Part shown: positions 6,828-20,852 of the stretch, one piece after another
Layout of the letters: the number at the start of each line of letters is the position of its first letter
How positions within the stretch are numbered: the first letter of the stretch is position 1
NCBI GenBank assembly: GCA_030835125.1
Contig: JAUQWM010000037.1
Coordinates: 124,001 to 188,000 of the forward strand
Direction of reading: 5' to 3'
Origin: Gemmatimonadaceae bacterium
Lineage (GTDB): Bacteria; Gemmatimonadota; Gemmatimonadetes; Gemmatimonadales; Gemmatimonadaceae
DNA: 64,000 nt
The notes under the pieces: model-generated
Databases searched by the model: none
What the model saw: the letters and a program-made list of their open reading frames with translations, nothing else
What the model was told of the DNA's origin: nothing
Position numbers and translations under genes: made by a program

Positions 6828-9473
6828 TCAGTCGAGTCGCATCGCGATCACCGGGCTGACGCGGGTGGCGCGCCGCGCAGGGAGCCAGGCGGCCAGGATG
6901 CTCACGAGCACGAAGGCCAGCGCGGTCCCGGCGAAGCTGACGGGGTCGGTCGCGCTGAGGCCCGTCACCAGGAAGACGGACAGCGGCCGCGTGGCGAGGG
7001 CCGCGATGAGCAGGCCAAGGCCAACCCCGATCCCCACCAGCATGGTCACGTCGCGGATCACGAGGCGCAGGATGCCGCGGTTCGTCGCCCCGAGGGCGAC
7101 GCGAATCGCGATCTCGCTGATCCGGCGGCTCACGGTATATGAGACGATGGCGAAGAGCCCGAACATCGCCAGGACGAGCCCGAGGATGCCCAGGCTCCCC
7201 AGCACCGCGGCACCGACCTGGCTGGGCAGGAATGCGAGGGCCAGGGCGGCCCGCATCGGTTTCACGTCCACGGCCATGGTCCGGTCGATTTCCCCCAGGG
7301 CGGCGCGGACCGCCGGCAGCATCGCCGCGGGGTCTCCCTGCGTCCGGACGATGACGTAGCCGAGCTTCAACCCTTCCGGCTCCTGGCGAAGCGGCCGGTA
7401 GATCGCCGCCCGCTGCTCCTCGCCTAACGTGCGGTGCTTCCCGTTGGCGACCACGCCCACGATGGTGAAGTCCATCGGATGGTCCCGGCTGAGCACCTGC
7501 ACGCGGCTGCCGACGGCGTTTCCGCCCCCGATGTACCGCCGGACGAACTCCGCGTTGACCACGCCGACCGCGGGCGCCCCGGCGCGGTCGGCGTCGAGGA
7601 ACTCGCGCCCCTGCAGGATCCGCGTGCCTGACGTAACGAAGTATCCCGGCCCGGGAAGGGTGAGGGCGAACTCGATGTGCTGCGGATCGCCGCCGTCGAT
7701 GCGCGCGTTGAGTCCGCTCGTCGACCCGCCATGCATCGTGAGCGGGACGGCGTTCGCGTATGCCGCCGCGGTGATGCCGGGATGCCCCCGCATCTTCTCG
7801 ACCGCTGCGTCGAGGACGGCCAGCGGGTCCGGTGCTGCCGGCGTTCCCTCGAGGAACCCGAGTTCCGCGACGAGGGAGCGCTTGACGTCGAACCCGGGAT
7901 CGGTGAACTGCGTTCGCGCGAGGTTCCGCACGAAGAGGAACGCGGTCACCAGGAGCACGGTGGACACCGTCACCTGCCCGGCCAGCAGGGCGCTGCGGGC
8001 ACTGAACCGCCGGGTCGCGTACTGTGGCTCCTCGCGCTTGAGCGACGGGGTGAGCACGAGGCGGGTCGCGCCCAGGGCCGGCAGGAGGGAGCTCAGCACC
8101 ATGCTGAGGAGGACCAGCGCAAGCGCGCCCAGCATGATGGTCGCGTCAGGCGCGAGCTGCAGGTCGAACGGCACCGGGATCGGAAGGGTGATCCCGTTGA
8201 CCACCTTCATGAACGCGAAGCTGAGCAACAGGCCGCCCGTGGTGCCAAGGAGCGCCAGCCAGAATCCCTCGACGAGGAACTGCTGCAGCAACCGGGCGCG
8301 CGTCCCGCCGAGCGCAAGGCGGATGGCGATCTCGCGGCGCCGGGCGGTGCCGCGGGCGATCAACAGGCCGGCCACGTTGGCGCACGCGATCAACAGCACG
8401 AACAGCGACACGAGCCCGAGCAGCGCGAAGAAGCCGCCGATCATCGTCCCCTTGCCGGTCAGCGCGCCGAGCGGCGCGAACTCCTGGACGCCCGCGTACA
8501 AGGTGTCGCGCTCGAGGCGACCGAGCCGGCGATCCACCGCGTTGAGCTGGGAGCGCCCCTGGGCGAGCGCCTGTCCCGGCTTCAGGCGTCCCACGAGCTG
8601 GACGATGCGGTCGCCTGGCGTGAACATTTCCGGTATCAGGGACCGATTGATCGGCACGTACACGCCGGGGGCGATGGCGAAGCCAGCCACGCTGCGCAGG
8701 CGCGCGGGCAACACTCCCATGATCGTGTAGCTCTCGCCGTTGAGCACCAGCCCGCGCCCGACGACGGCGGGATCGGCCCGCAAGGGGCCCTGCCAGAATC
8801 CGTGGCTGACGATCGCCACCCGGGGATCGGCCTCGGCGCGCGCCTCGGCGGCGGTGAATGCGCGTCCCTGCGCCACGGGCACGCCGGTGACGTCGAAGAA
8901 GTTCGCGGTCACCAGCATGGGCGTGATGGAGACCGCGGCGTCGCCGTCGAGCCAGTTGACCTGCTTCTCCAGCGAATAACCGGCGATGCCCGCCAAGGCG
9001 TCACTGGCATCGAGGTCGAGCCACCGCTGGTACGTGGCGTGGCTCCCGTGGCTGACGCGCATCTGCACCAGCTCCCCGGGGCGCCGCGCGTCGGGCCTGG
9101 CGAACACGAACTCCTTGGCGAGGCTGAGCACGGCGATGTTGCCGCCCGCTCCCAGCGCGATGGACGTCGTCGCGGCGAGGAGGAGGATCGGTTCGCGCAA
9201 CAACCCTCGCAGGGTGTAGCGGAGGTCGCGCATGAGGTTGTCGAGGCCCGACCATCCGCGGGCATCCCGGGCTGCTTCCGTCACGTTGTCCATTCCTCCG
9301 AAGGTGCGCATGGCCTCGCGCCAGGCCTCGTCAGGCGGCACGCCGCGCGCGACATGCTCGGCCGCCTGCTGTTCGATGTGGGCCCGCAGCTCGCGCTGGA
9401 GTTCCTGGTCCACCCGCTCCCGGTGGAGGAGGGAGCGCAGGCGGAGCCGGGCGATGTCGGTCCAGCGAGGCAT
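6828..9473 (-). CDS. MacB/FtsX-type orphan ABC permease (ADOP family) with N-terminal prefix domain
   Basis: 881 residues from ATG 9473. The first ~70 residues form the helical permease-prefix domain (RERVDQELQRELRAHIEQQ). Then come two repeats of a periplasmic MacB-type core followed by an FtsX membrane domain: LLLAATTSIALGAGGNIAVL, FALLGLVSLFVLLIACANVAGLL, and C-terminally LFAIVSYTVSRRISEIAIRVALGA. Proteins of this type are common in Acidobacteriota and Gemmatimonadota, lack a cognate ATPase nearby, and often sit beside a PadR regulator, as here: the padR stop is 11 bases upstream. Role presumably efflux or envelope stress; not demonstrated. Confidence 0.88.
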   Translation of the reverse strand: MPRWTDIARLRLRSLLHRERVDQELQRELRAHIEQQAAEHVARGVPPDEAWREAMRTFGGMDNVTEAARDARGWSGLDNLMRDLRYTLRGLLREPILLLAATTSIALGAGGNIAVLSLAKEFVFARPDARRPGELVQMRVSHGSHATYQRWLDLDASDALAGIAGYSLEKQVNWLDGDAAVSITPMLVTANFFDVTGVPVAQGRAFTAAEARAEADPRVAIVSHGFWQGPLRADPAVVGRGLVLNGESYTIMGVLPARLRSVAGFAIAPGVYVPINRSLIPEMFTPGDRIVQLVGRLKPGQALAQGRSQLNAVDRRLGRLERDTLYAGVQEFAPLGALTGKGTMIGGFFALLGLVSLFVLLIACANVAGLLIARGTARRREIAIRLALGGTRARLLQQFLVEGFWLALLGTTGGLLLSFAFMKVVNGITLPIPVPFDLQLAPDATIMLGALALVLLSMVLSSLLPALGATRLVLTPSLKREEPQYATRRFSARSALLAGQVTVSTVLLVTAFLFVRNLARTQFTDPGFDVKRSLVAELGFLEGTPAAPDPLAVLDAAVEKMRGHPGITAAAYANAVPLTMHGGSTSGLNARIDGGDPQHIEFALTLPGPGYFVTSGTRILQGREFLDADRAGAPAVGVVNAEFVRRYIGGGNAVGSRVQVLSRDHPMDFTIVGVVANGKHRTLGEEQRAAIYRPLRQEPEGLKLGYVIVRTQGDPAAMLPAVRAALGEIDRTMAVDVKPMRAALALAFLPSQVGAAVLGSLGILGLVLAMFGLFAIVSYTVSRRISEIAIRVALGATNRGILRLVIRDVTMLVGIGVGLGLLIAALATRPLSVFLVTGLSATDPVSFAGTALAFVLVSILAAWLPARRATRVSPVIAMRLD

Positions 9474-9484
9474 GGGCGCGGTCG

Positions 9485-9811
9485 TCAGGCGTTGCGGAGC
9501 ACGAGCCCGATGGCTCCCGAGAGGCGCACCCACTGCGAGAGCTCCTCGCTGAGCTGGGCGCGCCCGGCCCGGGTGAGCGAGTAGACCTTCGCCTCGCGTC
9601 CCGTGTCGGTGCGCTGCCATTCGGCGCTGAGCCAGCCCTGCTGCTCGAGCCGGTGCAACGCGGGGTAGAGCGATCCCTGCTTGATCTGCAGCACGTCGTC
9701 CGACACGACCTGGATACGCTTGGCGATCGCCCAGCCGTGGCGGGGGCCGGCGGCGAGCGACTTGAGGATCAGCACGTCGAGCGTGCCCTGGATCAGGTCC
9801 GACGGTTTCAC
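9485..9811 (-). CDS. PadR family transcriptional regulator
   Basis: 108 residues from GTG 9811. It is a compact PadR winged-helix protein: LIQGTLDVLILKSLAAGPRHGWAIAKRI, then LQIKQGSLYPALHRLEQQGWL and VYSLTRAGRAQL. Members are repressors released by small ligands. It is cotranscribed with the orphan permease just downstream and is preceded by two tandem 21-bp repeats that probably include its own operator. Confidence 0.93.
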   Translation of the reverse strand: MKPSDLIQGTLDVLILKSLAAGPRHGWAIAKRIQVVSDDVLQIKQGSLYPALHRLEQQGWLSAEWQRTDTGREAKVYSLTRAGRAQLSEELSQWVRLSGAIGLVLRNA

Positions 9812-9818
9812 GAAAGCC

Positions 9819-9859
9819 CCATGCCAAGATGATCTACAACCATGCCTCGATTATCTACA
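9819..9859 (-). promoter_or_regulatory. Two tandem 21-bp direct repeats upstream of padR (candidate operator)
   Basis: Read on the minus strand, 9859-9840 is TGTAGATAATCGAGGCATGG and 9838-9819 is TGTAGATCATCTTGGCATGG. They match at 17 of 20 positions with a period of exactly 21 bases, about two helical turns, and end 8 bases before the padR start. They are AT-rich for this genome. Likely PadR binding sites and/or promoter elements for the padR-permease operon. Confidence 0.6.
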
Positions 9860-10762: not shown

Positions 10763-13249
10763 CTACTCCTCGCGCAGGGCCACGGTCGGGTGCACCCGTG
10801 CCGCGCTGCGCGCGGGGACAAAGGCGGCCAGCACGGCGACAACGCCTAACGCCAGCACGGCCAGCAGGAACGGGCCCGCCTGGCCGTCGAGGTGCGCCGG
10901 CACGCTGCCAGGCAGGCGGGATGCGAGGGTCCGCGCGATGCCCACGGCGAGCACCGTGCCCACCATGGCCCCGGCGCCGGCGTAGACCGCCGCGTACCGC
11001 ATGAAGTGCCGGACGATGCGCCCCGGCGACGCACCCAGCGCCATGCGGATCCCGATCTCGGCGCGCTGCTGCGTCACCGCGTACCCGATCACCGCGTAGA
11101 GGCCTAACGTCGCGAGAACCAGTGCCGCGAGGCCCAGCACGGTCAGCACCGTGCTGGCCACCCGGATCGGCAGGAAGGGAACCGCACTGTAATCGTCGAG
11201 CGTGGCGGGACTGGACGCGGTGAGTCGTGCATCCACGCCCTCGACCGTGCGCCGCAACAGCGGTACCAGGGCCAGGGGAGATCCCGTGGTCCGGGCATGG
11301 AGGACGATCGTGAAGCTCGCCCACTGGCCGAAGGGCAGGTAGACGAACGGGGGCGACGGTTCTTCCAGCGGCGCCAGGAACTCGTACTTCCCGTTCGCCG
11401 CCACGCCGACCACGGTCACTTCCCGGTCATCCACACGGAGGCGACGACCGATCGCGGTCCTGTCCCCCCAGAAGCGTTTCGCGAACGCCTCGTTGACCAC
11501 CACGACCGGGGCCGACTCGGCGCGATCCGATGCGTCGAGGGCGCGGCCCTCGACGATCGGGATGCCCATCGTGTCGAAGTAGCCGGCGGTGACCGCGTTG
11601 GTCAGGAACGTCATCGACTCGCCCGGCCGCGGCGCATAGCCGTCCACGGCGGTGTTCGCGAGGGAGTAGCCGAGGAACCCGAGCGGGACGAAGGAGGCGG
11701 CGGCGGCGCGCTGGACGCCCGGCAGCGCCGATACGCGTTCGACCAGCCGCTCGGCCAGGGCCTGGCGCGTGGCGTCGTCGCTGACGCCGGCAAGGTCGAA
11801 GTCCACCGTCGCGAGCAGGACCTGTTCCGGCGCGCGGAAGCCGCGATCGACCAGTTGCAACTCGTTGAGTCGCTGGATGAACAGCCCGGCCGTCGCCAGG
11901 ACGGCCAGCGACAGCGCGAACTGGGCACTGACGAGCGTTCCGCGGACCCGACCGCCCTGCGCTGTCCCCCCGCGCGTTCCGCCGCCGGTGAGCGAGGCGC
12001 GGACTTCGACCCGGGTCGCCTTGAGCGCCGGGGCGAGCCCGAATGCAAAAATGGTTGCGACGCCGATGGCGGCAATCACGAGGATTACCGTGCCGTCGAA
12101 CGGCGTCTCCACGACCAGGGGCAACGGGGAAGGCGGTGCCAGCGAGTTGAGCATGTTCCGGGACCAGGCGGCGAATCCGGTGGCGAGGACCACGCCGCCC
12201 AGGGCAAGCAGGAAGGACTCGGTCATCAGCTGCCTGACGACGCGGGCCGCGCGCGCGCCGAGCGCCAGTCGCACGGCGATCTCGTGCTCGCGCGAGGCGC
12301 TGCGCAGCAGCAGCAGGTTGGCCACGTTCGAGCAGACGATGAGCACCACGAGGAACGACAGGCCGAGCATGACCTTGAAGATCGGTGCCATCCGTTCGAC
12401 CGGTCCGACGTCCAGCGTCCTGGCGAACATGCCGACATCGCGGAGGGCGGTGTGGGCGGCCGACAGTTCCGCGCCGAGGGATGTCGCGGCGGCACTGGCC
12501 GACTCGAGGGTGATCCCGGGCGCGAGCCGCGCGAAGACGTCGAGCCATCGGATGTCGCGGTCCTCCAGGAGCGCGGGGTTGCCCAGGTCGTGCTGGAGCG
12601 CGAGCGGGACCCACATCTCGAGCCCGAGCCGGGAGATCGTGCCGGTGAAGCGCGGCGGCGCGACGCCGACGATGGTCACCGCGCGGTCGCTGACCCAGAG
12701 CCGCTGCCCGATGATGTCGCGCGCGCCATGGAACCGCCGCAGCCAGAAGCCATGACTGATGACCGCCACGGCAGCATTCCCACCGACCCGTCCCTCGTCA
12801 GGCAGGAACGTGCGGCCGAGGATCGGGCGCACGCCGAGCACCTCGAAGTAGTCGGCGCTGGTCATCGCACCCCACACCGGCTCGGCGTGGCGCAACTCGG
12901 CCGTGGTCGATGTGCGCACCGCGAACCGGCGGATGCCATGGGCACCAAAGGCGGTGAAGGCGTCGCGGCGCGCCTCACCCGTGTCGCGGGCGATGTCGAG
13001 CCAGGTGGGGTGCGCGATGAGTTCCTCGCCCCGCAGCGTCCCGGTGCGGAGCGAGACCAGGCCGGCCGGGTCGGTCACCCCCGGCACCGGATTGGAGACG
13101 ATGCTTCGCGTCCACACGAAAACCGCGCCGGTTGCCCCGATGCTGAAGCCCAGGCAGAGGATGATGGTGGCCGACGCGAGCGCCGACTTCCGCAGGGCGC
13201 GAAACGCGAATCGGAAGTCTGCCGAGAGGCCGTCCAGGATGGTTGTCAT
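10763..13249 (-). CDS. MacB/FtsX-type orphan ABC permease (ADOP family), short form
   Basis: 828 residues from ATG 13249. Same two-fold MacB-core/FtsX architecture as the permease at 6828-9473 (LSFLVVLIVCSNVANLLLLR, AVIGYAVTQQRAEIGIRMALGA, ending VALREE), but it lacks the N-terminal prefix domain and no PadR gene is adjacent. Sequence divergence between the two is large, so this is not a recent duplication. No ATPase lies next to it. Role inferred only from family: transport or mechanotransmission across the envelope. Confidence 0.86.
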   Translation of the reverse strand: MTTILDGLSADFRFAFRALRKSALASATIILCLGFSIGATGAVFVWTRSIVSNPVPGVTDPAGLVSLRTGTLRGEELIAHPTWLDIARDTGEARRDAFTAFGAHGIRRFAVRTSTTAELRHAEPVWGAMTSADYFEVLGVRPILGRTFLPDEGRVGGNAAVAVISHGFWLRRFHGARDIIGQRLWVSDRAVTIVGVAPPRFTGTISRLGLEMWVPLALQHDLGNPALLEDRDIRWLDVFARLAPGITLESASAAATSLGAELSAAHTALRDVGMFARTLDVGPVERMAPIFKVMLGLSFLVVLIVCSNVANLLLLRSASREHEIAVRLALGARAARVVRQLMTESFLLALGGVVLATGFAAWSRNMLNSLAPPSPLPLVVETPFDGTVILVIAAIGVATIFAFGLAPALKATRVEVRASLTGGGTRGGTAQGGRVRGTLVSAQFALSLAVLATAGLFIQRLNELQLVDRGFRAPEQVLLATVDFDLAGVSDDATRQALAERLVERVSALPGVQRAAAASFVPLGFLGYSLANTAVDGYAPRPGESMTFLTNAVTAGYFDTMGIPIVEGRALDASDRAESAPVVVVNEAFAKRFWGDRTAIGRRLRVDDREVTVVGVAANGKYEFLAPLEEPSPPFVYLPFGQWASFTIVLHARTTGSPLALVPLLRRTVEGVDARLTASSPATLDDYSAVPFLPIRVASTVLTVLGLAALVLATLGLYAVIGYAVTQQRAEIGIRMALGASPGRIVRHFMRYAAVYAGAGAMVGTVLAVGIARTLASRLPGSVPAHLDGQAGPFLLAVLALGVVAVLAAFVPARSAARVHPTVALREE

Positions 13250-13509
13250 CCCACCCAACCTGATGGATCACCTTCAGGACAACCAGAGCCCGGTGTCGAT
13301 GGCGCCCCACCACGCCGCGTTCTGCGGACGTGCCGGTCTGGCGCGCGCCATTGACCCTAGGAGTGATGGCGTGGGTCGGTGGGGGCAGTATCTTCTCTCA
13401 AGGATCCGTTCCCTTCCCGGCGCGCGGGCTCGCGGCCTGTCGTGATCGGTCGAAGGCGAGGCCGCAACTGGGGGTGGCGTCGACCAGCCCCGCTTCAAGG
13501 AGATTGCTT
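13250..13509. other. Intergenic region, 260 bases
   Basis: Divergent gap between the short permease (minus) and the PA2779-like gene (plus). A TATCTT at 13389-13394 could be a -10 element for the plus-strand gene, leaving a leader of about 110 bases. AAGGAGAT at 13498-13505 is its ribosome binding site. I see no conserved RNA structure or small gene. Confidence 0.4.
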
Positions 13510-13884
13510 GTGCTGAAACTCATCGCAGGAACGGCAGTCGTGATGTTGGCCTCGGTGGGGACGTCGACACGGGTCGCCGCCCAGGCTGGCAGCGCCGTCA
13601 CCAGCGCCGAACTGGAGGCCGCTGTCCTCGCAGCGCCCTCCACGAACAGGGAGACCGTCCAGCGTTTCCTCCGTGACAGCCTTGTGAACGAGGTGGCCAC
13701 GAAGATGGGGATTCGGACGGCGGAGCTCGCTGCCCTCGCCAGCACCCTGGATGAGGCGACGCTGGCGAAGGTTGCGGACCGCACCCGCGCGGCGGACCGC
13801 GACCTGGCCGGCGGTGACCAGGTGGTGATCAGCACGACGGCCATCATCATCGTGCTCCTGATCCTCATCCTGCTGACGCGGTAA
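13510..13884 (+). CDS. PA2779-like small membrane-anchored protein
   Basis: 124 residues from GTG 13510, chosen because AAGGAGAT lies five bases upstream and the signal peptide (LKLIAGTAVVMLASVGTSTRVAAQ) begins here. The body (SAELEAAVLAAPSTNRETVQRFLRD...GIRTAELAALASTLDEATLAKVADR) follows the PA2779 pattern of a helical domain, then a glycine hinge (LAGGDQ) and a C-terminal membrane helix (VVISTTAIIIVLLILILLTR). PA2779 proteins are encoded beside PA2778-type C39 peptidases, and that is what follows, 13 bases downstream. Function of the family is unknown. Confidence 0.8.
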   Translation: MLKLIAGTAVVMLASVGTSTRVAAQAGSAVTSAELEAAVLAAPSTNRETVQRFLRDSLVNEVATKMGIRTAELAALASTLDEATLAKVADRTRAADRDLAGGDQVVISTTAIIIVLLILILLTR

Positions 13885-13897
13885 TACCGCGGCCCCT

Positions 13898-15982
13898 GTG
13901 CGGCGGATCGCCCGGACGCTCGCAGCGTTAGGCGGTCTGGGCGCGTCGCTGGGCGGTGCGTCGGCGACCGCCCAATCGCCGGCCGCGGAACCGGGTCGGG
14001 GGGCGCCGCCCGCCCTGGACGTCCCGTACCTCCCGCAGTCGGAATTGCTCTGCGGCGGTGCGGCCGTCGCGATGGTCGAGCGCTGGTGGGGGAAACGCGG
14101 GGTCTACGCCGAGGACTTCGCCGCCCTGGTCCGGCCGGAGCTGCAGGGGATCCGCACCACCGACCTCGCGGCTGCGGCGCGCTCCCGCGGATGGGACACG
14201 CGGACCTTCGATGGGACGCCGGACGCGGTTCGCCAGATCCTCGCCGGGGGAATCCCGGTGGTCGCGCTCATCGAGGTCGCGCCCCGCCGCTTCCACTATG
14301 TGGTCCTGCTCGGCTGGGCGGAGGGCAGGGTCACGTACCACGACCCGGCGATTGCACCCAGCCGGCTCGTGGCCGAGGCCCGGTTCCTGAAGGAGTGGAG
14401 CGGGGGCGAACGATGGGCGATGGTGCTGAGACCGGGAACGCGTTCCCCGGGGGAACCGGTCACGGACTCGGTGCGGCCGATGCCGGTCGCGTCAATGCCC
14501 TGTGGCCCGTGGATCGACCAGGCGCTGGAGGCCGTCGCCGCCGGACGGCTCGAGGACGCCGTCGTGTTGTTAGGCGAGGCCGGGCGCGCGTGCCCCGAGG
14601 AGCCGGTGATACTGCGCGAGCTTGCCGGGGTCCGGTTCAAGCAGCGCCGGCTGTCCGAGGCCATTCGCCTGTCGATGCAGTACGTGGGGCGGGTCCCTGG
14701 TGATGCCCATGCCTGGAATCTGCTGGCGACGAGCCGATATCTCGCGGGCGATCGGGACGGTGCGCTCCGGGCCTGGAATATGGTCGGCCTTCCCATCGTG
14801 GACCTGACGCGCATCGACGGGGTCCGCGGGATCCGGTTCCGGACCATCGCCGACGCTGTGGGAGCGCCTCACGGGACCGTCCTGACTCCCTCCGCCCTCG
14901 CGCTGGCCCGTCGCCGCCTCGGCGACCTCGGTGCCATACGTCGGGCCGCGGTGGACTTCCAACCGGTCACGGATGGCCGTGCGGAGGTGCGGGCCGTGGT
15001 GGTCGAGCGTCCGGTGTTGAACGCGGCACCGCGGCTGCTGGTTGCCAACGGTCTGCGCGCGATCACGCAGCGCGCAATCGGCGTGAGCGTTGCCACCCCG
15101 ACGGGTGCGGGTGAACTGTGGACCGCTGATTGGCGATGGGAACACGCCCATCCGCGACTTGCCCTTGGGGTCGACGTCCCCATCCGGCTTGGGGTGACCG
15201 GCACGATGACGCTCACCCGTGTCCGCAAGCGATTCCGATTCGCCGTCGATTCGGCGGCATCGGGCGCCTTCGAGGAGAGTCGGAGCGCCGGCAGCGTGTC
15301 CTTCGGTGGATGGATCACGCCCGACTTGCGTCCCCACGTCGGGATTGGATTCCAGCGCTGGTCCGGGGGCAGGGAGTACCTGGACCTCAGCGCTGGCGCG
15401 GAGTTCCGCTTCGCCGGTGACCGGCTCGTCATCGCCACGAATGGACAGTTTGCCCAGGCCCTCGCCGCCAATGCCTCGTGGCTCCGCGGGGAGGTCCGGG
15501 GGCTCTGGTCGTCGGCCGCTGACCTGGGGCGCCGCGGCTGGTCGGCACGCCTGGGGCTGGACCTGACGAGTCGCGACGCACCGCTCGGCGTCAGGCCGGT
15601 CGCGAGCGGCGATGATCCATGGGTCATTCCCCTTCGGGCGCATCCCCGGACGCGCGGCGGCCTGCTCCCGGGCGCGACCACCGGTCAGGGCATGATCCAT
15701 GGCGGCCTGTCCGGTGACCAACCCGTCCATCGGGCAGGACTGTTCACGGTGGCCATCGGCGTCTTCGTCGACGGCGCCCGGATCATGGATCCCGCGGACG
15801 GCTCCGGGCGCGATCGGCTCCATGTCGATGCGGGTGGCGGCATCCGGATTGGCATCCTCGATGGGCAACTCGGCGTCGTGCGCGTCGACCTGGCCCGGGG
15901 GCTCATGAGTCATCGTTCTGCGCTGTCCGTGGGACTGCACCAGCGCTGGCCACCATTCCGGGACGGCATTCGTCCGCCGTGA
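13898..15982 (+). CDS. C39-family cysteine peptidase fused to TPR, POTRA-like and outer-membrane beta-barrel regions
   Basis: 694 residues from GTG 13898, with a signal peptide (to about residue 26). Residues 40-160 are a C39 papain-like peptidase of the PA2778 type: Gln47 and Cys52 in PQSELLCGGAA, His133 in RRFHYVVLLGW, Asp149 in TYHDPA. Residues about 205-300 are TPR-like helices (GRLEDAVVLLGEAGRACPEEP, WNLLATSRYLAGDRDGALRAW). About 300-375 looks like one POTRA domain (LTRIDGVRGIRFRTIADAVG...VRAVVVERP). From about 380 to the end amphipathic beta strands resemble an Omp85/surface-antigen barrel, with GGGIRIGI...LGVVRVDLARGL near the C-terminus. Normal PA2778 proteins stop after the TPRs. The frame is continuous. 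Peptidase and TPR calls are firm; the barrel is inferred from strand pattern. Confidence 0.78.
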   Translation: MRRIARTLAALGGLGASLGGASATAQSPAAEPGRGAPPALDVPYLPQSELLCGGAAVAMVERWWGKRGVYAEDFAALVRPELQGIRTTDLAAAARSRGWDTRTFDGTPDAVRQILAGGIPVVALIEVAPRRFHYVVLLGWAEGRVTYHDPAIAPSRLVAEARFLKEWSGGERWAMVLRPGTRSPGEPVTDSVRPMPVASMPCGPWIDQALEAVAAGRLEDAVVLLGEAGRACPEEPVILRELAGVRFKQRRLSEAIRLSMQYVGRVPGDAHAWNLLATSRYLAGDRDGALRAWNMVGLPIVDLTRIDGVRGIRFRTIADAVGAPHGTVLTPSALALARRRLGDLGAIRRAAVDFQPVTDGRAEVRAVVVERPVLNAAPRLLVANGLRAITQRAIGVSVATPTGAGELWTADWRWEHAHPRLALGVDVPIRLGVTGTMTLTRVRKRFRFAVDSAASGAFEESRSAGSVSFGGWITPDLRPHVGIGFQRWSGGREYLDLSAGAEFRFAGDRLVIATNGQFAQALAANASWLRGEVRGLWSSAADLGRRGWSARLGLDLTSRDAPLGVRPVASGDDPWVIPLRAHPRTRGGLLPGATTGQGMIHGGLSGDQPVHRAGLFTVAIGVFVDGARIMDPADGSGRDRLHVDAGGGIRIGILDGQLGVVRVDLARGLMSHRSALSVGLHQRWPPFRDGIRPP

Positions 15983-16639: not shown

Positions 16640-17692
16640 TCAGCGCTTCCGGGCGGGGCGCCTGGCGTCCCCGAACGACTCGAGGAGGCGAAGAAGGGAG
16701 CGCTCACAATGCCGGAGCCGGCCGCGTGACGCGGCAAGTTCGCCGACCGCCGCCACCGGCTTCCTCACCACGCGGCCGCCCTCGAAGGCCCGGATGATGG
16801 CCGGGGAGATGTAGGACGCGCGACACACCGCCGGTGTATTTCCCAGCGTTTCCGCGGTTTCCCGCACCGCGATCGCCACCCGGCGTCGGAGGGCGCTTGG
16901 AGAGTCGGCAGGATCGAAGCCGATGCGGGCAAGGGCACAGGCGCAGGTCATCGTACCGGCCCACGTCCGGAAGTCCTTGGCGCTGAACGCGTCCCCCATG
17001 GCGTCCTTGATGTAGGCGTTGATGTGCTGACGGCGGACTTCCTTCCAGGTCCCGGATGCGTCCTGGAACGTGAAGACGCGGCGCCCGCCAGCCTTGAGCA
17101 GGGCGCGGACCGTCGCCGCGACGCGCCGATCGGCGAAGTCATAGACGTGTCCCTTGCCGCTCTTGCCGTTGAAGCGCAGCCGGACCGAGTGGCGGCCCAC
17201 CTCGACGTGCCTCGGACGCAGCGTGGCGATGCCGTAGCTGCCGTTCTCGCTGGCGTACTCCTCACTCCCGGGCCGAAGAAAGCAGATCGAGAGGATCCGG
17301 AGGATGCAGGCGACCACGCGTTCCTGGCCGTAGTCGTTCCGCGACAGGTCACGGGATACGCGAGCCCGCAGCGCAGGAAGTCCCCGGGTAAACGCGATGA
17401 GCCGCCGGTGCTTCCGGCGTTCGCGTCGCGCCACCGCCCGCTCGTGATACAGGTACTGCCAGCGCCCCGCCTTGTCCTTGCCGACGGCCTGGATCCACGC
17501 CGACGCGGAGGGATCGATGGCGACCGAGCGCCAGGCCGGCGGGATGCGCATGCCCTCGATGCGCGCCAGTTGCCGCAGGCCCGGCGGGCTGCGCAAGGGC
17601 CTGCCGTTCCGCGCAAGACGATATCGAAAGCCGGACCTGATCCCGCCCAGTCGCAGGATGCCGTCCGACTGCAGGTCGCTGACAACGGTCAC
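16640..17692 (-). CDS. DNA topoisomerase IB (bacterial, poxvirus-like)
   Basis: 350 residues from GTG 17692, the normal size for bacterial topoisomerase IB. The N-terminal domain (RLGGIRSGFRYRLARNGRPL, RIPPAWRSVAIDPSASAWIQAVGKDKAGRWQYLYH) binds DNA. The catalytic domain has RFNGKSGKGHVYDF, FSAKDFRTWAGTM and the nucleophile Tyr294 in CRASYISPAI. It relaxes supercoils by a 3'-phosphotyrosyl intermediate. It is 127 bases downstream of the amidohydrolase gene on the same strand. Confidence 0.93.
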   Translation of the reverse strand: MTVVSDLQSDGILRLGGIRSGFRYRLARNGRPLRSPPGLRQLARIEGMRIPPAWRSVAIDPSASAWIQAVGKDKAGRWQYLYHERAVARRERRKHRRLIAFTRGLPALRARVSRDLSRNDYGQERVVACILRILSICFLRPGSEEYASENGSYGIATLRPRHVEVGRHSVRLRFNGKSGKGHVYDFADRRVAATVRALLKAGGRRVFTFQDASGTWKEVRRQHINAYIKDAMGDAFSAKDFRTWAGTMTCACALARIGFDPADSPSALRRRVAIAVRETAETLGNTPAVCRASYISPAIIRAFEGGRVVRKPVAAVGELAASRGRLRHCERSLLRLLESFGDARRPARKR

Positions 17693-17819: not shown

Positions 17820-20800
17820 TCAGGGCTGGAATCCGGCCGAGATCAGCTGGGCGCGCGTGAAGTACCTGCCATTGGCGATCACGCCGGTGACGCGATAGGT
17901 CGCGGAGATATCCTGGAGCGGGTTCCCCTCGACGATGGCCAGGTCGGCGATCCGTCCGGCCTCGATCGTGCCGACGTTCAGCCCCAGGGCCTGCGCCGAG
18001 TTGACCGTGGCGGTCTTCAGCGCCTGGTAGGGCGTCATCCCCGCGGCGACGTAGGCGAGGATCTCGGCCTGGACGTTGGCCGCGTTGGGCGTGTCCGTTC
18101 CCGCCACCACGCGGGCGCCGGCGTTCTGGGCGTTCACGATCATCGCGTCGATGCCTCCCTGCGTCGCCGCGCCTCCGCCCCGCCCACCGCGCCCGCCGGC
18201 GGCTCCGCCGCGCCCGGCCCCTCGCGCGCCGCCGCGGCCCCCGCCGGTCACGCTGGCGCTCAGCCACGCGGGATACAACCCGAACCGCTCGTCGGCGCGG
18301 AGGGCCGTGTCGGCCGCCAGCATCCGGGCCATGGTCGCGCCGCCTAACGCCATCGTCGGGCTGAAGGTCATTCCCGACTTTCCCCAGAGCTGGGCGACGT
18401 CGTCGTAGCTCCGGTTGAGCGTCGCCACCTTGGGGGAGAAGCCGCGCCGGCTCGTCCCGGTCGTGTGCTCCGTCCCGTCGAGCCCCGACAGGGCCGCCGG
18501 GTAGACTTCATGCGACGAGGTGCGCATCCCGTTCGCGCGCCCGAACTCGGCGATGCGCTTCGCCTGCAGGTCGGGCATCCGCACGTACGCCTTCAGGACA
18601 TCGTGCCCCAGCGCCTTCGCCCGCGCGAGTTCCAGCTCGAGGTGGGCCGAATCGTGGATGGCGACCGCCATCTTGTAGTAGACGCGCTGCCATTCCATGA
18701 GGTAGCCGGCGGCGACGATGCGGGGACCGATGCGCACCCCGGCCTCGACGGCCTCCTTGTCCTCGATGCCCTCGTACGGCGTGCTGCCCGGGCTCCGGAC
18801 CGTCGTGATGCCGAATGCCAGCGCGGCGCGCTCGTGCGCCTCGCCGAGATCCTTCTGCATGTGCGAGTGGTACTCGATGAGCCCGGGCATCACGGTGCGA
18901 TTCCCGGCATCCACGACGCGCCCATTGGCGTGCGCAGCGTCCGAGTGCGGGGCAACCGACGTGATCCGGTTGCCCTGGATGACCAGGTCGACATTCTCCC
19001 GCAGCGCTTCGCTCTTCATGTCCACCAGTCGCCCGGCGTGCACCACGTAGTCCCCGGCGGGCACGGCCGGCGTGTAGGAAAGGTCGAGCGCGACATCGCG
19101 CGAGCGGCCCGTGGCCACGTCGACCAGGCGAAACCGGTCCATGGCCTGGTACAGGATGGACTTCCCGTCGGCCGTCCACGTGGGCATGTAGGCGATGTCA
19201 CTCGTCAGGCGGCGCGGCGCAGCGGTCGGGGCGCCACTGGCGGCCGTCGGGAGGAGCGACAGCCTGCCTTCGTAGACGAGCGCCATGCTGGCCCCGTCGG
19301 GCGAGATGACCGGGCCGTTGCCGACCCGCGAATCGATGGACTGGTGCGGGAGCGGCGTGAACCAGGTGGAGTCTCCGCCGGCGACGGAGAGGGAGAGGAT
19401 CTGGTTGGTGCCCTCGCGGAAGCGGCCTGAATACGCCGTGATGGCGGCAATGAGGATGCGCTGCCCGTCCTTCGACCACGTCGGGTTCCCCGGGCCGAAC
19501 AAGGGGGCATGTACCTGCCGGACTTCGCCGGTCGCCACCTCGACCACGTTCACGCTGGCCCGGCGCCAGACGCCATCGACGTTCAGGAAGGCGATGCGCC
19601 GCCCATCGGGCGACCAGGCGGCACCCATGGCGGATCCCACGGTGCTCGTCAGGCGGCGTGCCTGGCCGGTGGACAGGTCCCGGATCCACAGGTCGAGCAG
19701 TTGCCCGCCGCGATCGGTCGACCAGGCGAGATAGCGACCATCCGGCGACCAGGCCGGCTCGGTGTCGAGGAAGCGATCGTTCGTGACGTTCACGGGCTTG
19801 CCACCCATCGGCATGATCCAGAGGTCACCGATCGCGGCAAAGGCCACCGAACGGCCATCGGGCGAGATGGCCGGGCTCATGATGCCCTTCACCGGCCGGG
19901 GACTGCGTGCCTCGGGCCTCGAGCCGGTGGGCGGGGCGCCGTTGGTGGGCGCGCGTGCGGCCATCACCGGGAGCGTGGCCGAGAACTCGATGGTTCGACT
20001 GGGACCTCCGGCGATCGAACGCCGGCGGATCCTGCCGTCGGAGACGTAGACGATCTCGTTCGCCGATGCCCAGGCGGCGCGGAACGGAAACGCATTCTCG
20101 TCACCGGTGAGGCCGCGGCCCTCGATCTCGAGCTGGCTCCCGATGCCGCCGGTGGAGTGATAGACGACCTGTCCCCCGGGACCCCAGGAGGGAGCGTCAG
20201 CGCGAACGCCCTCCGCGGAAACACGCCGCTCGGTGCCGGTCGCCAGGGTGACCGCCCAGAGCGACTGGCCGCCGGCGCGCGTGGAGATGAAGGCGATTTC
20301 GCGGTCGTCCGGCGACCACGTGGGCATGAAGTCGTCCGCGCCGTCCGCGGTGACCCGGGTCAGTGCGCCCGACCGCAGGTCGAGGACCCACACATTGTAG
20401 TTGCCAACGCCGGCCCGGGGCTGGCCAGCGCTGATCGACTCGCCGCGGTCGGACGAGAATGCGACCCTTGTGCCGTCGTGCGACCAGGCCGGCTCGCGGT
20501 CGTCGAACGGGCCGCGCGTCAGTTGTCGCTGGTTCCGGCCATCAGGGGACACCGCCCAGATGTCGTAGCCACCATCGCGATATCCCTGGAACGCGATGGT
20601 GCGCCCATCGGGAGAGAAGGTGGGGTGTCGGGCGTCGTTGTACGCATCGGTGACCTGCCGTGCCGCGCCTCCCGTGGCGGGCAGCGTCCACACGGAACCC
20701 TGCAGGTCGATCGCGAGCGTGCGGCCGTCGGGTGAGATCGACACCGACATCGAGGTGCCTTCGTGCACGACGACCGAGGCGGTCTGGGATTGGCGACTGC

Positions 20801-20852
20801 CCATCGCCAGGACGGCGATGAACGCGGATGCGCGGGCGACTACCGTGATCAT
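17820..20852 (-). CDS. Secreted amidohydrolase with N-terminal TolB/PD40 beta-propeller
   Basis: 1010 residues from ATG 20852, preceded by GGAGAA on the minus strand. After a signal peptide, about 600 residues form a PD40 propeller (repeats of ISPDGRTLA, FSPDGRTIAFQ, WSPDDREIAF). The C-terminal third is an amidohydrolase: metal motif EYHSHM, candidate carboxylated lysine in DVLKAYVRMP, histidines in SSHEVYP and GTEHTTG, aspartate in VAGTDTPNAAN. A low-complexity Gly/Arg/Ala insert (about residues 865-895, GGGRGGARGAGRGGAAGG) interrupts the barrel. Such fusions are frequent in this group and are thought to be exported peptidases or amidases; substrate unknown. Confidence 0.88.
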   Translation of the reverse strand: MITVVARASAFIAVLAMGSRQSQTASVVVHEGTSMSVSISPDGRTLAIDLQGSVWTLPATGGAARQVTDAYNDARHPTFSPDGRTIAFQGYRDGGYDIWAVSPDGRNQRQLTRGPFDDREPAWSHDGTRVAFSSDRGESISAGQPRAGVGNYNVWVLDLRSGALTRVTADGADDFMPTWSPDDREIAFISTRAGGQSLWAVTLATGTERRVSAEGVRADAPSWGPGGQVVYHSTGGIGSQLEIEGRGLTGDENAFPFRAAWASANEIVYVSDGRIRRRSIAGGPSRTIEFSATLPVMAARAPTNGAPPTGSRPEARSPRPVKGIMSPAISPDGRSVAFAAIGDLWIMPMGGKPVNVTNDRFLDTEPAWSPDGRYLAWSTDRGGQLLDLWIRDLSTGQARRLTSTVGSAMGAAWSPDGRRIAFLNVDGVWRRASVNVVEVATGEVRQVHAPLFGPGNPTWSKDGQRILIAAITAYSGRFREGTNQILSLSVAGGDSTWFTPLPHQSIDSRVGNGPVISPDGASMALVYEGRLSLLPTAASGAPTAAPRRLTSDIAYMPTWTADGKSILYQAMDRFRLVDVATGRSRDVALDLSYTPAVPAGDYVVHAGRLVDMKSEALRENVDLVIQGNRITSVAPHSDAAHANGRVVDAGNRTVMPGLIEYHSHMQKDLGEAHERAALAFGITTVRSPGSTPYEGIEDKEAVEAGVRIGPRIVAAGYLMEWQRVYYKMAVAIHDSAHLELELARAKALGHDVLKAYVRMPDLQAKRIAEFGRANGMRTSSHEVYPAALSGLDGTEHTTGTSRRGFSPKVATLNRSYDDVAQLWGKSGMTFSPTMALGGATMARMLAADTALRADERFGLYPAWLSASVTGGGRGGARGAGRGGAAGGRGGRGGGAATQGGIDAMIVNAQNAGARVVAGTDTPNAANVQAEILAYVAAGMTPYQALKTATVNSAQALGLNVGTIEAGRIADLAIVEGNPLQDISATYRVTGVIANGRYFTRAQLISAGFQP

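Follow-up and report, generated by a model that had tools for sequence, protein, structure and literature searches.

Fusion of a C39 peptidase to an Omp85-type barrel and an invariant Gly-Gly in its partner protein suggest a two-part protein-processing system in several bacterial phyla

Introduction

The closest described relatives of the proteins studied here are found in the PA2778/PA2779 pair, which is named after Pseudomonas aeruginosa genes and represented by the NCBI models NF033920 (PA2778_fam) and NF033919 (PA2779_fam). In the openly accessible journal literature searched, we found no paper on the function of PA2778/PA2779 or on a C39-Omp85 fusion. Peptidases of the C39 type usually cut at a GG motif, with (l/v)-x-GG as the canonical site, and for the periplasmic C39 peptidase FapD the active cysteine is needed for outer-membrane secretion (PMC5557850). 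Among the Omp85 proteins, the enzyme domain of PlpD has been shown to be periplasmic (PMC11116518), and a 2014 survey of the superfamily names neither a TPR nor a peptidase of the present kind (PMC4104836).

Here, we describe a gene pair located in a 64,000-nucleotide stretch of DNA from a Gemmatimonadaceae bacterium, the whole of which is termed the window in the following. The fusion protein and its Gly-Gly-bearing partner suggest an undescribed two-part protein-processing system that extends over several bacterial phyla. The fusion to an Omp85 barrel is new with respect to the known PA2778/PA2779 pair, and the Gly-Gly site in the partner is a new observation.

Results

The larger gene of the pair (13898-15982, + strand) starts with GTG and spans 694 codons without a stop, confirming the single uninterrupted frame claimed in the first-pass annotation; from stop to stop the frame comprises 701 codons, i.e., seven more upstream. 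Reading of the frame, Pfam, AlphaFold2, profile comparison and Foldseek assign to the 694-residue product a signal peptide, a C39 peptidase, a TPR domain, a POTRA domain and an Omp85 barrel. The signal peptide (13898-13972) was read from the sequence by eye and is probably cut near Ala-Thr-Ala. The C39 domain (residues 40-180, 14015-14437) is matched by PF13529 (E 5.9e-8) and PF03412 (E 2.1e-7), both above cut-off, and is also apparent from an alignment of 30 fusions (the one in the window and 29 others) and from the fusions' C39 profile, which matches the peptidases of ComA and PCAT1. Cys52 (14051-14053), His133 and Asp149, previously proposed as an intact catalytic set, are unchanged in 30 of 30 fusions, and so is Gln47, which we take to be the expected oxyanion-hole glutamine. 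According to Pfam, this N-terminal domain is a C39 peptidase and not a patatin-like lipase, and ABC transmembrane or ATPase domains are absent from the protein.

The TPR domain (residues 203-294, 14504-14779) emerges from Pfam (PF14559, E 3.7e-5, slightly below cut-off), alignment, profile and AlphaFold2, which predicts six helices for the region, in keeping with the TPR-like helices noted earlier. Cys202, just ahead of the domain, and Cys232 within it are near-invariant across the 30 fusions, suggesting a disulfide that would fit a periplasmic location. NF033920 matches all 30 fusions at E <= 0.001. With the window protein it yields E 1e-16 and 61.1 bits, which is below the curated cut-off of 150, and model positions 4-246 of 255 align to residues 41-292, covering both C39 and TPR.

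Within residues 297-694, Pfam detected no POTRA or barrel family when the window protein was searched alone. PF01103 did not match this protein and reached E <= 1 in 7/30 relatives (best 0.009); together with PF07244 it gave weak matches in several fusion members, and in one unfused relative the two families scored E 1.4e-4 and 4.8e-4. A profile of residues 297-694 from the 30 fusions matched TamA (E 2.3e-4, barrel end) and BamA (E 2.7e-4, POTRA and barrel end). A profile search of residues 300-694, proposed in the first-pass annotation, was thus successful with the family profile, with Pfam silent on the window protein. AlphaFold2, run with the 30-row alignment, returned a model with a mean pLDDT of 88.9 and a pTM of 0.85, in which the C39 domain and the TPR-region helices are followed by one POTRA domain (about residues 300-370) and a barrel at residues 393-681, i.e., by the membrane barrel predicted to lie beyond residue 380. 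The top PDB matches of this model in Foldseek are BamA and TamA (E ~1e-13, probability 1.0). We accordingly place the POTRA domain at residues 299-372 (14792-15013), with model, profile and Foldseek agreeing on a single such domain ahead of the barrel, and the barrel at 15074-15940. DSSP assigns 15 strands of at least seven residues from position 393 on, plus one short strand, and the model likely contains the 16 strands expected for an Omp85 barrel. Its modelled fold puts the barrel in the Omp85 superfamily, and the earlier assignment of a POTRA-like segment and an Omp85-family barrel therefore holds. Arg580 (15635-15637), invariant in the 30 fusions, lies in the sequence LRAHP, where Omp85 proteins have the loop-6 RG(F/Y) motif; by position, the two may be equivalent. 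Since separate Omp85 proteins are also encoded in the genome, the fusion is neither its sole Omp85 protein nor its BamA.

The partner gene (13510-13884, + strand) is preceded by AAGGAG (13497-13502), a likely ribosome-binding site seven bases before the GTG start at 13510, and ends 13 bases before the fusion gene, as had been stated. It encodes 124 residues comprising a signal peptide, a helical domain, Gly-Gly and a C-terminal transmembrane helix (13822-13878), the latter with the hydrophobic run IIIVLLILILL. NF033919 matches the protein with E 6.9e-8 and 32.7 bits, below the curated cut-off of 40; several relatives score 40-47.5 bits, and 37 of 38 partners are matched at E <= 0.001. These features bear out its original description as a PA2779-like, membrane-anchored protein. 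AlphaFold2 predicts, with moderate confidence, helices at residues 32-100 and 105-123, and Gly101-Gly102 (13810-13815), the proposed C39 cleavage site, falls where the helical domain gives way to the last helix. No relatives of the partner were found in the PDB.

A PA2779-like gene resides directly upstream of nearly every fusion, and no other neighbour family comes close. The 38 aligned partners are 25-48% identical to that of the window, and the only invariant residues are Met1 and Gly101-Gly102. In all 38, Gly-Gly immediately precedes the C-terminal transmembrane helix. Between it and the end of the protein lie 22-27 residues, first a few polar ones and then the hydrophobic helix; position -4 is hydrophobic in 36/38, a feature shared with substrates of C39 peptidases, and position -3 is almost always Ala or Val. 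A lysine scan along the NCBIfam PA2779 model revealed a mild preference for the two glycines (2.1 and 1.5 bits), which is weakly supportive. A search of 11 genomes for further substrates with a partner-type tail gave nothing convincing beyond the partner; the tail profile used would miss sites of the FAAG type described below. Taken together, the sequence features indicate that the PA2779-like protein is probably the substrate of the C39 peptidase.

Downstream of the fusion, at the reported distance of 61 bases, lies a gene for a TlpA/ResA-like thioredoxin of 182 residues. It had been regarded as part of the unit, and we reject it as a third component because it has no counterpart in related loci. 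Other conserved neighbours are lineage-local: some Acidobacteriota have a gene for either a divergent methyltransferase or a T2SSE/PilT-like ATPase upstream. Elsewhere in the window, the minus strand encodes two MacB/FtsX-type permeases without fused ATPase (6828-9827, adjoining a PadR-like frame at 9485-9811, and 10763-13258), which presumably resemble the duplicated orphan permeases known from Acidobacteria, a bacterial DNA topoisomerase IB (16640-17692; PF01028, PF21338) and a PD40 beta-propeller fused to an amidohydrolase (17820-20852, 1010 residues).

The proposed search for the same fusion in other Gemmatimonadota genomes was successful and led beyond this phylum. Gemmatimonadota, Acidobacteriota and Eisenbacteria provide 29 near-full-length fusions besides that of the window, all sharing its catalytic set. 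GTDB genome contigs, when scanned, yielded 34 loci, which belong to these phyla and to unclassified bins. In a sample of 395 genomes from the phylum of the window, 11 contain the fusion and 10 further genomes contain a version without C39. One locus (L033) lies on a 3.5-kb contig filed as Polyangiaceae (Myxococcota); its protein is 52% identical to that of the window, one of the two closest, and falls within the Gemmatimonadota group of the tree, which points to a contig that is probably misbinned. PA2779_fam gave no match in any of 38 genomes around this locus, so that this comparison is uninformative. Another fusion (L054:2462-5452, + strand) comprises 997 residues, about 300 more than the others, and Pfam found no family in it besides C39. 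When plasmids were searched with C39-TPR by tblastn, the single match type at E <= 1e-3 was an ABC exporter, and E <= 10 led to an annotated pair in Azoarcus; phage records gave no match.

This pair is encoded on a plasmid of Azoarcus sp. KH32C. The protein annotated there as PA2779 scores 99 bits, which exceeds the cut-off, and ends in SMPAGGNLTTTEWILIVLIAILVAIAL; the frame of the adjoining PA2778 peptidase, when extended upstream, begins with the lipobox LAAC and continues with C39 and TPR, with no barrel. In Eleftheria terrae, the PA2779 protein carries PAGGD before the transmembrane helix and the peptidase has the lipobox LTGC. Both Pseudomonadota PA2779 proteins thus have Gly-Gly before the transmembrane helix and stand beside a lipobox peptidase, and both peptidases lack Asp at the expected triad position. 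The view that known PA2778 proteins comprise no more than peptidase and TPR holds for these annotated proteins, which are built as lipobox-C39-TPR. It follows that Gly-Gly is shared across phyla and that the peptidase anchor differs, being a lipid there and an Omp85 barrel here.

In several Acidobacteriota, C39 and TPR-(POTRA)-barrel are encoded by adjacent, overlapping genes, which means that the fusion unites components that belong together even when unfused. At the site of Gly-Gly, the partners in these organisms read FAAG, or x-AG in dispersed paralogues. The genomes G490, G788, G516 and G764 (L190-L204) combine several dispersed PA2779-like paralogues (three or four copies in the first three) with one C39 and TPR-barrel pair elsewhere; the tails of the paralogues read AGG, AGD, AGH or AGL, and one peptidase perhaps serves several substrates. 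Considered more widely, the site thus consists of a small residue plus Gly a few residues before the transmembrane helix, and position -4 is often hydrophobic; among the sequences compared, strict Gly-Gly is restricted to the fused proteins' partners and the two Pseudomonadota examples. Of all components, TPR and partner alone recur throughout the arrangements, and the TPR is therefore the likely docking site.

One Gemmatimonadota family possesses TPR-POTRA-barrel proteins without C39 (L012-L021, L030, L077, L082, L087), and the partner is still encoded upstream. Gly-Gly is retained in 5 of the 14 partners encoded next to a protein observed to have no C39, compared with 38/38 where C39 is present, and C39-bearing genomes of the same family retain LAGG. 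Fisher tests of this association were set aside as stand-alone evidence because the rows are related. The tree of the TPR-POTRA-barrel part shows a single loss of C39, and each of the four changes of Gly-Gly falls inside the resulting clade; as the clade makes up 27% of the tree length, the chance of all four falling there is about 0.005, in a comparison that represents a single loss event. Since barrel and partner persist where C39 has been lost, cleavage cannot be the whole function, and in this clade the unit functions without proteolysis.

Discussion

We propose, with moderate confidence, that the two genes encode a dedicated envelope protease and its substrate, the C39 domain cutting the inner-membrane-anchored partner after Gly-Gly and freeing its helical domain. 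The barrel would reside in the outer membrane and hold POTRA, TPR and peptidase in the periplasm, as expected from the analogy with studied Omp85 proteins. Given its signal peptide and C-terminal helix, the partner is expected to be anchored in the inner membrane by that helix, with the helical domain in the periplasm. The TPR would dock the partner and C39 would part the helical domain from its anchor, a reaction in which the outer-membrane enzyme and the inner-membrane substrate would have to meet. The barrel would be first of all an anchor, a job done by the lipid anchor in PA2778 of Pseudomonadota. Anchoring alone would account for the barrel, and export through it is a possible but speculative role.

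Cleavage after Gly-Gly is supported by the invariance of the C39 triad and Gln and the profile match to the double-glycine peptidases ComA and PCAT1, by the retention of Gly-Gly in 38/38 partners compared that are accompanied by C39, against 5/14 where the neighbour lacks it, by its recurrence in the two Pseudomonadota pairs, by the position of the partner gene directly upstream in nearly all loci, and by the hydrophobic -4 residue and the 22-27 residues that follow the site. An enzyme-substrate relationship also gains from the Omp85 fold of the barrel and from the adjacency of separate C39 and barrel genes in Acidobacteriota. FapD sets a precedent, as a periplasmic C39 peptidase whose catalysis is required by an outer-membrane export system (PMC5557850). 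The model is weakened by the FAAG and x-AG sites of the split-gene Acidobacteriota, the missing triad Asp of both Pseudomonadota peptidases and the mildness of the preference in the lysine scan; moreover, Gly-Gly could be a helix-breaking hinge, and the test by C39 loss amounts to one loss.

The hinge is central to a different explanation, in which the partner serves as a tether between inner membrane and barrel, attached to TPR/POTRA, and C39 acts on other proteins or on itself. TamB, which works with TamA, offers a parallel. The persistence of barrel and partner where C39 is gone, and TPR and partner being the only parts common to all arrangements, speak for such a role; a hinge, however, leaves unexplained why Gly-Gly is constant beside C39 and erodes once C39 is gone, and why the residue at -4 is hydrophobic. 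We regard the tether as rather unlikely, though worth weighing.

Still less probable, in our judgement, is that the freed helical domain or another substrate reaches the surface through the barrel, in the manner of two-partner secretion. Some Omp85 proteins (TpsB) do translocate co-encoded substrates. FapD with FapF constitutes a secretion system of a C39 peptidase plus a pore (PMC5557850). Against export stand the missing second export signal in the partner, the Pseudomonadota, which manage without a barrel, and PlpD, the enzyme-bearing protein that offers the best analogy, which keeps its enzyme domain in the periplasm (PMC11116518). The surface-processing role initially suggested for the peptidase is likewise unsupported, as POTRA domains and the N-terminal enzyme domain of PlpD are periplasmic (PMC11116518). 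We are equally doubtful of a trans-envelope release, in which the Omp85-borne C39 would recognize the partner via TPR/POTRA, cut at Gly-Gly where the membranes are bridged and pass the domain to or through the barrel; if true, it would differ from two-partner secretion, TAM and type Vd as an Omp85 route coupled to proteolysis. That two genes were joined by chance read-through or misassembly, as the split neighbouring C39 and barrel genes of some Acidobacteriota might suggest, can be dismissed in view of the 29 further near-full-length fusions from independent assemblies and the confident, continuous AlphaFold2 model.

Returning to the protease-substrate model, the fusion in other phyla would place a PA2778-type peptidase at the outer membrane. 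With the invariant Gly-Gly comes a concrete substrate and cleavage-site hypothesis for PA2778/PA2779 that is testable by co-expression. The fusion would also extend the short list of enzyme-bearing Omp85 proteins by a protease domain.

By architecture and context, the window proteins are clearly relatives of PA2778/PA2779, and by NCBI cut-offs they fall outside the models. Both pairs combine a C39 and TPR peptidase with an adjoining small protein that has a signal peptide and a C-terminal transmembrane helix, and (A/G)G precedes that helix in the two annotated pairs examined; the known pair, however, has a lipobox and neither POTRA nor barrel. PlpD and FplA, patatin-like Omp85 proteins of type Vd, likewise unite an exported enzyme domain, one POTRA and an Omp85 barrel in one chain (PMC11116518), but their enzyme is a patatin lipase, whereas the fusion has a C39 peptidase, an inserted TPR and a co-encoded partner. 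TamA and BamA share the POTRA and barrel fold, from which the fusion departs by its single POTRA and its fused peptidase and TPR. In Pseudomonas Fap amyloid export, FapD is also a periplasmic C39 peptidase that serves an outer-membrane protein (PMC5557850); FapD and FapF, in contrast, are not joined in one chain, FapF forms a trimeric barrel of 12 strands and is no Omp85 protein, and the substrates are amyloids. The peptidase-containing ABC transporters PCAT1 and ComA have the same peptidase fold and probably the same hydrophobic-x-GG specificity, but their peptidases are cytosolic and fused to ABC transporters, while the fusion carries a signal peptide and a barrel. Finally, GlyGly-CTERM proteins resemble the partner in having Gly-Gly just before a C-terminal transmembrane helix, with removal of the anchor proposed (PMC13393428); there, a rhomboid protease, rhombosortase, acts on many tagged proteins, whereas here a C39 peptidase would face one dedicated partner.
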